A DNA stretch of 64,000 nucleotides from Echinicola soli (GTDB taxonomy: Bacteria > Bacteroidota > Bacteroidia > Cytophagales > Cyclobacteriaceae), in assembly GCF_006575665.1 (NCBI RefSeq), contig NZ_CP041253.1:5273501-5337500 (forward strand), in the 5' to 3' direction. How positions within the stretch are numbered: the stretch's first letter is position 1; each line of letters opens with the position of its first letter. The notes under the pieces were generated by a model. That model was not told where the DNA came from. It searched no databases and worked only from the letters and a program-made list of their open reading frames with translations. Shown piece after piece: positions 35,629 through 45,948 of this stretch. The position numbers and the translations under genes were made by a program.

Positions 35629-35668
35629 TGTCACATTTAAGGCAAACACGGCCTTAAGCACATAAAAA

Positions 35669-35741
35669 TGACCCATGGTGTAACTGGCAACACGTCTGAT
35701 TTTGGTTCAGAAGAGTCTAGGTTCGAGCCCTAGTGGGTCAA
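35669..35741 (+). tRNA. tRNA-Gln (anticodon UUG)
   Basis: Full cloverleaf by eye: acceptor TGACCCA / TGGGTCA with discriminator A; D-stem around GTGT...ACAC; anticodon stem TCTGA / TCAGA with loop TTTTGGT, giving anticodon TTG (Gln); T-arm CTAGG-TTCGAGC-CCTAG. The CCA end is not encoded. It is followed directly by a terminator and by the left copy of a direct repeat that recurs 2.4 kb downstream, so its 3' end seems to have served as an integration site. Confidence 0.95.
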
Positions 35742-35810
35742 CAAAAGCAAAAACCGCATTACGAAATGCGGTTTTTGCTTTTTAAAAGAAACCAGTTTTC
35801 AGTTTGCCTT
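35736..35810 (+). repeat. Direct repeat, left (attL-like), at the tRNA-Gln 3' end
   Basis: Starts with the last bases of the tRNA. The first 26 bases (35736-35761) are identical to 38132-38157; then AATGCGGTTTTTG and CAGTTTTYAGTTTGCCTT also recur in the same order, ending at 35810 / 38207. It includes the tRNA terminator. Confidence 0.8.
35743..35782 (+). terminator. Terminator of tRNA-Gln
   Basis: AGCAAAAACCGCATT-ACGA-AATGCGGTTTTTGCT followed by TTTT: a perfect 15-bp stem with a 4-nt loop, starting 2 bp after the tRNA. Confidence 0.93.
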
Positions 35811-35991
35811 AAATGCCATCTATATTCATATTTTTTATGACCCTTTCTTTTTATCTCGAATTATTTCATTTAATAGCTCCCGAAAATTTAAACGCTTAAC
35901 TTTTTTCTTGAATTAGGTCGTTTATCTGACCAATGATTCTTTCTAGAATAATATTTGTTACTTACATTAAGTGCTTTAATATAGAATTCAT

Positions 35992-36306
35992 ATGAAATCC
36001 ATAAAATCAAATACAGCATATCCAAACCTACCTCAAAGGTTGTTCTGGGATTTCGATTTCGATAAACTGGATTGGGATAAAAGCTATCGAACAGTCATCG
36101 AAAGGGTAATTGAGCGGGGTACTAAAACTGAATTGACTGAAATGACGAGGTATTATGGCAAAAACTTAATTAAGTCTGCTTTAAAAGACGAGATCAATTA
36201 TCTTCCTGAATATGCCATTGACTTGGTTGAACAAAATTTTGGCTTAAAAAGAACCCAACTCAAATGCTACAAAAAGACACAGTCTCGGCATCAACATTGG
36301 CTTTGA
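35992..36306 (+). CDS. DUF6922-like small protein, associated with AbiEii systems
   Basis: A 104-aa cytoplasmic protein. The N-terminus LPQRLFWDFDFDKLDWDKSYRTVIERVIERG and the middle RYYGKNLIKSAL ... YLPEYAIDLVEQNFGLKRTQLKCYKK match my memory of DUF6922 proteins, which in Bacteroidota often sit beside AbiEii/AbiGii nucleotidyltransferase genes. It lacks catalytic motifs and resembles a small HTH-like or adaptor protein. It lies 208 bp upstream of the AbiEi gene, in the same direction, inside the tRNA-borne element. Role in the toxin-antitoxin module unknown. Confidence 0.75.
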   Translation: MKSIKSNTAYPNLPQRLFWDFDFDKLDWDKSYRTVIERVIERGTKTELTEMTRYYGKNLIKSALKDEINYLPEYAIDLVEQNFGLKRTQLKCYKKTQSRHQHWL

Positions 36307-36463
36307 TTAATGAAAGATGAGAAACGTCAAGGATTTCTATTTTTAGCAGGCTATGCCGCCACAGCTCTACGACTTTGATCTCCTATATCTTATCATAACT
36401 TTTCTTACCCTCACCTGAATTCCTTCATTCATTTAATAGTTTACATTTTGTAACAATATCAAA

Positions 36464-36492
36464 AGATAATCGGATATTTTTCGATTATCTTA
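36464..36492 (+). promoter_or_regulatory. Palindromic operator candidate upstream of abiEi
   Basis: A perfect 10-bp inverted repeat, AAGATAATCG (36464-36473) and CGATTATCTT (36483-36492), with a 9-bp spacer, ends 21 bp before the abiEi start codon. AbiEi antitoxins are known to repress their own operon through inverted repeats, so this is the natural operator candidate. Confidence 0.65.
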
Positions 36493-36513
36493 TTTATTTT
36501 ATACATTTATGAT

Positions 36514-37149
36514 ATGGATGTAAACCAGCAAATACGTAATCATTCCCATGCGCCCATTTCCCACCAATTACTTATCCATTGGTTAAAAGGATATAAAAGG
36601 CCAAATGATAAAATCATGCATTTAAAGACCAAAGGAATATTGAGCCAAATAAAAAAAGGGCTCTATACAGCTGGTCCAGGATTGACCAATGATAAACCTG
36701 ACCTGATCCTGCTGGCAAACCACATTCTTGGCCCAAGTTATGTCTCCATGGAAACCGCCCTATCACATTATGGAATGATCCCCGAAAGGGTCTTTGAGAT
36801 TACCTCCATGTGTACCAAAAGCTCCCGGGAATTTCATACTCTCTACGGAACATTTTCCTACAGGCAGCTACCACTTACCTACTATGCTTTGGGAATAAGA
36901 TCAACCCCTGTTTCAACGAACCAGTTTGCACTAATGGCCACTCCAGAAAAGGCTATATGTGACAAAATCGTCACTACTCCAGGCACTATCAGAAGCATAG
37001 CTTCGGCTTATAATTTCCTTGTTGAGAACTTACGAATGGACGAATTCCAGCTTAGAAAACTTGATTTAGAATCAATCCGTAAATGGTTGGTAGTATCCCC
37101 CAAAAGCAGTAGCATTTATTACATAATAAAAATGATTGAGCGGTTATGA
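36514..37149 (+). CDS. Type IV toxin-antitoxin system antitoxin, AbiEi family
   Basis: A 211-aa protein. The N-terminal winged helix-turn-helix shows ISHQLLIHWLKGYKRPNDKIMHLKTKGILSQIKKGLYTAGP (about 16-57), the usual AbiEi pattern of a DNA-binding wing ending in 'kGlY'. The C-terminal antitoxin domain includes SYVSMETALSHYGMIPE, GIRSTPVSTNQFALMATPEKAICDKI and LRKLDLESIRKWL, all standard for the family. It overlaps the toxin gene by four bases (ATGA), the coupling normal for AbiE. AbiEi neutralises AbiEii without stable complex formation and represses the operon. A 10-bp palindrome lies just upstream. Confidence 0.9.
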   Translation: MDVNQQIRNHSHAPISHQLLIHWLKGYKRPNDKIMHLKTKGILSQIKKGLYTAGPGLTNDKPDLILLANHILGPSYVSMETALSHYGMIPERVFEITSMCTKSSREFHTLYGTFSYRQLPLTYYALGIRSTPVSTNQFALMATPEKAICDKIVTTPGTIRSIASAYNFLVENLRMDEFQLRKLDLESIRKWLVVSPKSSSIYYIIKMIERL

Positions 37150-38000
37150 TCAAAGATTGGTTAAATACATATAATCCCGGAAATGAGCAAGAAGCTAAAG
37201 ACGCATTGAGGGAAATTATGCAAGAAATTGCTCTTTCAGGGCTCTATAGATCAGGGTTCTTCGAAAAAGCGGCTTTTTACGGAGGGACAGCTCTTAGGAT
37301 ATTCTATGGCTTGGACAGGTTTTCTGAGGACCTCGATTTTAGTCTTTTGAAGGAGGACACTTCATTTTCCATTGCCAAATACGAAAATGCAATCATCGAC
37401 GAATTCGCATCTCTGGGAATGAACGTATCGATAAAGGAAAAAAACAAAACAGCAGACAGCAACATTAATTCGGCCTTCCTGAAATCGGAAACAGTGTGGA
37501 AGGAACTTATTTTGGAAGGAATAATCCCCCAAAACGGACTTAAACAAATGGCAAACATAAAGATAAAGCTTGAGATCGACACCAAGCCACCATTGGGCTT
37601 TGATACCGAAGAAAAGCTATTGTTAAAACCCTTTTCCTTTTACGTCAAATGTTTCTCCATTTCCGATCTGTTTGCAGGAAAAATGCATGCTCTTTTGTTC
37701 AGAAGATGGGGCACCAATGTAAAAGGGAGGGATTGGTACGATATGGAATGGTATATCCGGAGAGATACCAAATTGAATTTATCTCATTTTGCCGTTCGGG
37801 CAATGGATAGTGGTGACTGGAAGAAAAACCAAATATCAGAAACTGAGTTTCTTGAATTATTAAATAGAAGAATAGACACTGTAAATATGGATTATGTCAA
37901 AAGGGATATACGTAGATTCATAAAAACACCAAGCGTTTTGGATATCTGGAACAAGAATTATTTTAAAGATTTGATAAAGCATCTACAATTCACCACCTAA
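37146..38000 (+). CDS. Type IV toxin-antitoxin system toxin, AbiEii nucleotidyltransferase
   Basis: A 284-aa member of the AbiEii/AbiGii family, DNA-polymerase-beta-like nucleotidyltransferases that block growth, in characterised homologues by modifying tRNA ends. The catalytic motif is intact: FYGGTALRIFYGLDRFSEDLDFSLL (GG[ST]-x9-DxD) at about residues 42-66. Downstream, KLEIDTKPP carries a third acidic residue, and DLFAGKMHALLFRRWGTNVKGRDWYDMEWYI is the conserved KxxAl..R...KgRD.yD motif. No truncation, so toxin activity is likely. Translationally coupled to AbiEi. Expected role: abortive infection, that is, phage-triggered growth arrest. Confidence 0.92.
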   Translation: MIKDWLNTYNPGNEQEAKDALREIMQEIALSGLYRSGFFEKAAFYGGTALRIFYGLDRFSEDLDFSLLKEDTSFSIAKYENAIIDEFASLGMNVSIKEKNKTADSNINSAFLKSETVWKELILEGIIPQNGLKQMANIKIKLEIDTKPPLGFDTEEKLLLKPFSFYVKCFSISDLFAGKMHALLFRRWGTNVKGRDWYDMEWYIRRDTKLNLSHFAVRAMDSGDWKKNQISETEFLELLNRRIDTVNMDYVKRDIRRFIKTPSVLDIWNKNYFKDLIKHLQFTT

Positions 38001-38108
38001 AAACCAAATAACAGCTAGTTGCATCTACCCATCTCGATCCAATCAATAGATCTTTATTGAAGCTGGAATTTGAATCAATTCCAATGCCATTTCCAAATCC
38101 TCCACAAA

Positions 38109-38207
38109 CCGGTTCGAAATAAGTACCAAGTGGTCAACAAAAGCAAAAACCGCATTATGTAATGCGGTTTTTGTTGTTTTATAGCCTATCAGTTTTTAGT
38201 TTGCCTT
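38109..38207. repeat. Direct repeat, right (attR-like), with tRNA remnant
   Basis: From 38132 it repeats the tRNA-Gln 3' end plus terminator (26 bases identical, then about 50 diverged). Just before it, CCGGTTCGA at 38109-38117 looks like a decayed T-arm of the same tRNA. This is the far boundary of the AbiE-bearing element. Confidence 0.7.
38142..38180. terminator. Bidirectional terminator between abiEii and the ABC permease gene
   Basis: CAAAAACCGCATTA / TAATGCGGTTTTTG (38144-38157 and 38160-38173) is a perfect 14-bp palindrome with T-rich flanks on both strands. It is a copy of the tRNA-Gln terminator and lies between the convergent ends of the toxin gene and the permease gene. Confidence 0.75.
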
Positions 38208-45880: not shown

Positions 45881-45948
45881 GTTCTATTCTTTTTCATTGG
45901 CGTCCGAGTAAAGGTTTTGCTTTCGCAGGAAATTCGTCAAAATCTATT

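Follow-up and report, generated by a model that had tools for sequence, protein, structure and literature searches.

Results

The tRNA-Gln locus

We analyzed 64,000 nucleotides of the Echinicola soli chromosome (NZ_CP041253.1, positions 5,273,501 to 5,337,500), a stretch hereafter called the window. In it, a gene for tRNA-Gln(TTG), preceded by purL and the sole tRNA that ARAGORN detected, is followed by a 2.4-kb cassette in which a DUF6922 gene and an AbiEi-AbiEii toxin-antitoxin (TA) pair lie between two direct repeats (Table 1). The source genome (G000, the own genome) was compared with ten other genomes of the genus (G001 to G010), all of different species, giving a genus set of 11.

An earlier note on this DNA had proposed the DUF6922-like, AbiEi, and AbiEii genes, which Pfam and PADLOC matches confirmed, and had called the insert AT-rich, which agrees with a G+C content of 36.6% in 35820-38088 against 44.9% for the whole window. 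It had also reported the tRNA 3′ end and its terminator as repeated in the same orientation. Positions 35736-35788 and 38132-38184 are indeed 89% identical over 53 nt, and a longer alignment spans 79 nt at 85% identity (E 1.1e-17 in a search of the own genome). Over their first 26 bases, the longest exact repeat, the copies are identical; 300 first-order Markov sequences of the 3.2-kb region reached at most 15, and a chance repeat was therefore rejected. No third place in the own genome matched, only the two window copies, each on both strands because of the terminator hairpin. Both copies fold as strong terminator-like hairpins (-24.3 and -20.8 kcal/mol). What is duplicated is the core GGTCAACA and the terminator only; the tRNA itself, which the note had counted in, is not.

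Table 1. Positions of the features in and around the two repeats of the window
Feature	Position	Strand	Evidence
tRNA-Gln(TTG), intact; 3′ end = B half-site	35669..35742	+	ARAGORN; GGTTCGA 35720-35726, TTCGA to core 10 bp
Left core GTCAACA of proposed vacant attB; putative crossover dinucleotide CA 35739-35740	35737..35743	+	Sequence comparison
Left terminator hairpin (B′ half)	35743..35782	+	Folding; similar terminator after tRNA-Gln in G009 and G008
Conserved leader	35783..35991	+	Strong matches elsewhere (G005, G003, G010 twice), each immediately right of a P site, decayed or not
DUF6922 gene	35992..36306	+	Pfam PF21956, 1.7e-22
Remnant, 5′ end of the toxin gene found after DUF6922 in relatives	~36310..36342	+	Comparison with relatives
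10-bp perfect inverted repeat AAGATAATCG-9-CGATTATCTT upstream of abiEi	36463..36491	.	Sequence
AbiEi antitoxin gene	36514..37149	+	PADLOC PDLC02230, 3.7e-70
AbiEii nucleotidyltransferase toxin gene	37146..38000	+	PF08843, 3.7e-32; PADLOC, 1.8e-120
Open frame crossing the core and resembling the tRNA-Gln recombinase gene's 3′ tail, FAFVDHLVLISNRFVEDLEMALELIQIPASIKIY-stop / ...VDHLVLISNRFVEDLEMALELIQIPASIKIY-stop	38043..38147	-	Translation comparison
P half-site; GGTTCGA 38111-38117, TTCGA to core 15 bp	38089..38132	+	Recurrence in relatives
Right core GTCAACA of proposed attR (P-B′)	38133..38139	+	Sequence comparison
Right terminator hairpin, B′ half of proposed attR	38139..38178	+	Folding; similarity continues to 38210

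A conserved half-site at the right repeat

The 50 bp left of the right repeat recur in five other genomes of the genus at 81 to 94% identity, and further copies are partly decayed. What the earlier note took for a decayed T-arm remnant is this recurring sequence, an attP half-site that we call P. In the tRNA-Gln genes, the T-loop TTCGA lies 10 bp from the core GTCAACA (11 of 11, and likewise in one tRNA fragment), whereas in P-type sites of the genus the spacing is 15 bp in 13 of 16 (two with a changed core) and 16 bp in one, with TTCGA lost in two. Twelve of these sites came from retrieved stretches (11 at 15 bp, one at 16), and four P-like matches were inspected afterwards: G010 5410731 (15 bp, core ATCAACA), G007:C12 229473 (15 bp, match ending at GTCA), and G006:C11 365677 and G003 4237905 (both without TTCGA). 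A family scan covering 295 genomes matched ten, eight of them from the genus, of which G002 and G009 matched in the terminator alone; the two outside it, G023 and G250, gave short, weak matches without the core.

For a Listeria phage integrase, the published description places the zinc-ribbon motif 5 bp nearer the centre in attB than in attP (PMC3783163). The spacings of 15 and 10 bp reproduce this offset of serine integrases, and the half-site in front of the right copy is of the attP type. Two features agree with an attR: TTCGA of the P half-site stands 15 bp from the core, against 10 bp in attB, and complete islands of a large serine recombinase (LSR) with the same P end occupy the same target in G003, G005, and G010. 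There, the P sites (5480788, 5837460, and 5368526, respectively) lie 69, 169, and 68 kb right of the purL-tRNA-Gln locus. The two arms of P-P′ form an imperfect dyad, ACCGAGTGGT-CA-ACAACTCGGT, with CA as its likely center. Since the dyad and the G007:C12 site that ends at GTCA point to the same dinucleotide, CA is the presumptive crossover. At the latter site (G007:C12:229473-229520, L129), P is followed by GTCACCC in place of GTCAACA; this is probably a junction with a different target and fits a crossover at CA.

Other copies lie in different surroundings. The P sites at G006:C18:458053 (L047) and G007:C30:250497 (L029) have a palindromic other arm (GTACCGAG) and adjoin tyrosine integrase genes and SusCD-like loci; we read them as an LSR site inside or beside another island. 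In G003, about 1.17 Mb from tRNA-Gln, a degenerate P, the leader, DUF6922, and a toxin fragment (C1:4237337-4237986; L038, L108) adjoin a tyrosine integrase and an excisionase-like gene. A 27-nt fragment of the tRNA-Gln 3′ end occurs away from the gene at G006:C16:607400-607426 (L018).

A large serine recombinase integrates at tRNA-Gln in relatives

An LSR arm at tRNA-Gln is present in 6 of the 11 genus genomes: complete in G003, G005, and G010, split over contigs in G006, and as remnants in G001 and G007. The window genome, G002, G004, G008, and G009 have none. In the three complete cases and in G006, with remnants in G001 and G007, tRNA-Gln runs straight into the 3′ end of an antisense LSR gene. 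The protein has the Resolvase, Recombinase, and zinc-ribbon domains of an LSR, the last scoring 24.9 bits, just under the cut-off of 25.3 (it is above the cut-off in two other LSRs scanned), and it resembles the A118-type integrase structures 4kis and 6dnw (E 1.2e-18).

At the G005 junction 5837504, the LSR frame passes through the core into P and ends in ...STLDRVVDPSVLISNRFVEDLGIILKLSDEINTKNNCL and a stop (also ...STLDRVVDPSVLISNRFVEDLG...NCL and a stop). When the LSR is integrated in tRNA-Gln, its gene ends in ...STLDRVVDPLGLEPRLF and a stop (also ...VVDPLGLEPRLF and a stop), read antisense from the tRNA. Judged from these frames, attP lies within the 3′ end of the LSR gene; integration would thus replace the C-terminal tail of the LSR by a few residues that the antisense strand of the tRNA gene encodes.

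The LSR search found no tRNA-Gln LSR in the own genome, and hence none in the element. The one complete LSR of this genome, 50% identical, sits in tRNA-Arg, a fragment lies elsewhere, and neither is near the window. A tyrosine integrase was rejected for this site: the PF00589 search (eight genomes) gave eight matches in the own genome, none of them in the window.

Island arrays and the cargo of the window

Further P-bounded units stand in tandem beyond the LSR islands of two relatives. In G005, the order is tRNA, a 169-kb LSR island, a 7.4-kb unit (a broken LSR, transposase-like genes, and a nucleotidyltransferase/NTase_sub_bind pair), a 1.4-kb unit (DUF6922 and a broken AbiEii-like gene), a 22-kb unit (sulfatase and SusCD-like genes), and P-terminator. 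In G010, it is tRNA, a 68-kb LSR island, a 42-kb unit starting with DUF6922 and a Fic gene, a 0.9-kb unit carrying a ParD-like gene, a P-P′ remnant, and the flanking genes; the same flanking genes as those right of this 111-kb array follow tRNA and terminator in G009. The SusCD, sulfatase, and most transposase names in the arrays were assigned by reading translations. The suggestion of the earlier note that the tRNA-Gln 3′ end is an island hotspot is thus supported by G005 and G010, where other cassettes lie between junctions of this kind. A relaxase search (PF03432 only, five genomes) found one in the 169-kb island of G005; the island intervals of G003 and G010 gave none. At tRNA-Gln of G006, what appears to be a 27-kb LSR island (C4:66568-93458; contigs C4 and C8) holds SusCD and sulfatase-like genes, apparently a mobile polysaccharide utilisation cargo.

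The left part of the window cassette (35737-36342) shares 87% identity with units that follow P in G005 and G010, and G003 has a further copy. An AbiEii-like gene, itself broken, follows DUF6922 in G005 and G003; in the window, the toxin gene after DUF6922 ends at about 33 bp, and DUF6922 is probably an antitoxin without its toxin. Next come abiEi and abiEii, adjacent and with overlapping frames, in the gene order of an AbiE type IV TA system. AbiEi scored 38 bits against the NCBIfam model, under its cut-off of 150, and had no Pfam match. AbiEii is of a very common type, with at least 8000 matches (every one of the 8000 candidates scored). None of the ten other genus genomes holds a close match to the window toxin; any match occurs in 2 of the 11 only, the second at 32% identity and elsewhere, and AbiE was rejected as a genus-wide cargo. 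Because a cut toxin gene is followed by an AbiE pair without a close match in the ten other genus genomes, the region is a fusion, for which a deletion within an array is the simplest origin, and the earlier idea of a minimal defence island moved as one unit becomes doubtful.

The AbiEi-AbiEii pair is apparently intact, and the inverted repeat upstream of it (Table 1) is a possible AbiEi operator; pair and upstream inverted repeat are common to the window and known AbiE type IV systems. Judging by its family, AbiE probably persists here as an addiction or defence module. The AbiE of the streptococcal integrative and conjugative element (ICE) ICESsuHN105 is described as helping to stabilise its ICE (PMC11062541), and by analogy such stabilisation is a plausible reason for its retention here. 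The window system differs in being of a Bacteroidota subtype, and its function is putative.

A perfect 14-nt inverted repeat (CATTTAAGGCAAAC / GTTTGCCTTAAATG, at 35634-35647 and 35802-35815) brackets tRNA-Gln and the left terminator. Relative to neighbouring genes, the purL-tRNA-Gln block has opposite orientations in G000 and G006 on one side and G001, G008, and G009 on the other. Farther right in the window, a dispersed repeat of about 50 bp (~45894-45946) recurs at least 16 more times in the own genome and, among the matches listed, 8 times in G009.

Related recombinases across Bacteroidota

Within the genus, LSRs of this family lie antisense in tRNA-Gln, -Arg, -Met, -Lys, -Pro, and -Ala genes and in the transfer-messenger RNA (tmRNA) gene. 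Beyond it, we took 80 named Bacteroidota loci, the best 80 of 571 candidates, chosen by similarity. In 64 of them, an antisense tRNA 3′ end lies inside the LSR frame, 1503 to 1530 nt after the start of the LSR match; seven others have a GxEP-like tail without a tRNA call inside, seven have neither, and two are open at contig ends. None of 460 control frames in the same loci (other frames of at least 150 aa, stop to stop) overlaps a tRNA 3′ end.

The shift was then measured between integrated LSRs and relatives without a tRNA tail, in eight pairs from seven specificities, chosen after LSR tails without tRNA had been seen. It was 5 bp in five of the seven: tRNA-Gln, tmRNA (two pairs), tRNA-Lys(TTT), tRNA-Leu(TAG), and tRNA-Lys(CTT), the last being the weakest pair, as it aligns over a short flank only. 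The tRNA-Glu pair gave a shift of 0, its second copy holding a tRNA fragment and probably not being a P site; the Arg pair, whose P is without TTCGA, was left unscored. A tree built by a quick method from 95 LSRs (78 of the 80 named loci, L164 and L228 being dropped, plus 17 of the genus; 79 with a target label) required at least 22 changes of tRNA type; for anticodon class the minimum was 34, where shuffling gave a mean of 61.9. Fewer changes than in the shuffled sets, yet many, indicate that LSR targets are inherited but often switched.

Discussion

We conclude that the right repeat is probably the attR (P-B′) of an LSR island at a tRNA-Gln attB, that the left one is a vacant attB, and that the 2.4 kb between them are the shrunken relic of a multi-unit array. 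Three observations in the sequences carry this reading: the tRNA-Gln LSR islands of relatives, the 5-bp shift between attB and attP, and P beside the right repeat. The tRNA-Gln(TTG) gene would be the attB for LSR islands in this genus, with an LSR dimer recognising the acceptor end (core GTCAACA, crossover presumably at CA). By analogy, its zinc-ribbon domain would probably read the T-loop GGTTCGA. The left arm and recombinase of such an island are absent at the window, where the tRNA would carry a plain attB; a deletion may have cut the leader-DUF6922 unit after about 33 bp of its toxin gene and fused it to AbiEi-AbiEii next to P.

Several points weigh against this account. Simple LSR integration cannot make a unit bounded by B′ on the left and P on the right, so that a deletion or an earlier array has to be assumed. 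The P sites are not uniform, with one at 16 bp, the changed core at G010 5410731, and two without TTCGA. Some stand beside tyrosine-integrase genes (G006:C18, G007:C30), and others off tRNA-Gln are found in G006:C4, G006:C11, G007:C12, G007:C29, and at G003 4237905. The earlier note had proposed a search for the empty site in relatives: 4 of the 10 have no LSR arm after the tRNA, but the FtsX-ABC block that lies right of attR was found beside tRNA-Gln in none of the ten, its best matches (G001:C12, G006:C11) being on other contigs than the tRNA. Hence no empty site with both flanks of the own genome was found, and because all relatives are different species, the order of events is loose.

The earlier note had also regarded the repeats as a bounding att pair whose integrase was lost or acts in trans. 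The right copy does appear to be an island attachment junction; the two are, however, of attB and attR type rather than attL and attR. As described for serine integrases, attP recombines with attB and, with a directionality factor, attL with attR, and no other pairs do (PMC3783163). The cassette should therefore be fixed now. Loss of the integrase, of the LSR and not the tyrosine type, agrees with the own genome; excision in trans is unlikely, because attB and attR are not a recombining pair and the own genome is also without a tRNA-Gln LSR. A new LSR island landing in the vacant attB would create an attL, and this attL could then recombine with the distal attR to release island and AbiE cassette as a composite. 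G005 and G010 show the corresponding layout of LSR island at the tRNA, further units, and distal P site.

One could suppose that the units from leader to P are non-autonomous, integrase-free TA cassettes with conserved ends of their own (terminator-leader on the left, P on the right) that LSRs move in trans. The same leader does precede different cargo, namely the DUF6922 units of G000, G003, G005, and G010 and the ParD unit of G010 (78% over ~155 bp); all five copies begin at the att core, which has decayed in G003, some units are as small as 0.9 and 1.4 kb, and the G003 copy lies about 1.17 Mb from tRNA-Gln. Such a circle would, however, join P-B′ ends, which is an attR, and by the published description serine integrases do not join attR to attB (PMC3783163). 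With the own genome lacking an LSR for this site and the toxin gene being cut inside the window unit, we consider this unlikely. A tyrosine-recombinase island with a 7-8 bp core repeat and a lost integrase is more improbable still. tRNA 3′ ends are the classic targets of these enzymes, the junctions share a core, and tyrosine integrase genes adjoin P-type sites in G006:C18 and G007:C30; yet each of the three complete cases has, adjoining tRNA-Gln, an LSR whose gene passes through the core, an overlap that largely refutes the idea, and the exact 5-bp shift is the signature of a serine integrase and was seen again for other specificities. That the right copy is an ancestral second tRNA-Gln gene, as the earlier note had allowed, or a chance terminator copy, decayed in place, is hardly credible: it does hold GGTTCGA, the last tRNA bases, and the terminator, but P is conserved among species with a 15-bp spacing found in no tRNA-Gln gene here (10 bp, 11 of 11), keeps an open frame, sits at island ends, and matches the tRNA in the core only, not in the acceptor or T stem.

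The LSR relic that we favor has parallels in known systems. Staphylococcal cassette chromosome (SCC) elements use Ccr serine recombinases, integrate in rlmH, and form tandem units, also ones without a recombinase, at the 3′ end of a single gene. The LSR family and the tandem and recombinase-less units at one gene's 3′ end are alike here, whereas the target is tRNA-Gln, attP lies inside the LSR gene, and the Ccr models scored the tRNA-Gln LSR at 57-102 bits against cut-offs of 700-900, far from SCC membership. The A118 integrase has comK as its target. A118-type integrases, as described, have their domains in the same order and a zinc-ribbon motif that is likewise offset by 5 bp between attP and attB (PMC3783163); they differ in targeting a protein gene, while the motif of the tRNA-Gln LSR is the tRNA T-loop. 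In the account of streptococcal rumA ICEs with a single serine integrase, the repeat end lies in the integrase gene, and integration exchanges 3′ parts and alters the C-terminal end, as here; the target, however, is a protein gene, and the new tail of our LSR is antisense tRNA (PMC4701971). Cis-mobilizable elements (CIMEs) and accretion arrays of ICEs and integrative mobilizable elements (IMEs) are reported to lose integration and transfer genes, keep att sites by a tRNA, line up tandem TA-cargo units, and allow composite excision, as may hold here. A CIME as so defined keeps attL and attR, whereas the left site of the window is a plain attB, and those arrays use a tyrosine recombinase where the window array is of the serine type (PMC5704250).

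tRNA 3′ ends are classically regarded as targets of tyrosine integrases. In Mycobacterium abscessus, tRNA or tmRNA genes were the targets of 16 of 23 tyrosine systems, and we saw no serine system at a tRNA gene named there (PMC10654092). In the open-licence literature, we found no description of a tRNA-targeting LSR clade; subscription papers and the TIGER and Islander databases are outside that scope. We think it likely that a Bacteroidota-wide LSR clade finds tRNA and tmRNA genes through the near-universal T-loop GGTTCGA as zinc-ribbon motif, set 5 bp farther out in attP, that it is retargetable by the acceptor side with its tail rewritten, and that vacant attB plus distal attR arrays are docking sites. 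Since the distance between T-loop and acceptor end is fixed in tRNAs, a clade LSR could switch tRNA genes by acceptor-side recognition alone.

A serine clade with one geometry at many tRNA genes would explain how LSRs can be both tRNA-specific and retargetable, and would offer tools for unidirectional integration in Bacteroidota, where nearly every genome has attB sites for them. The T-loop spacing (10 versus 15 in the tRNA-Gln case) would give a simple sequence rule that separates attB, attL, attR, and attP, and the duplicated terminator of the window would become a readable history of an island array. If this holds, the recombinase has its own tail rewritten in antisense-tRNA codons at every integration, and arrays like that of the window, with a vacant attB and a distal attR, would serve as docking sites whose defence cassettes depart in cis together with the next island.

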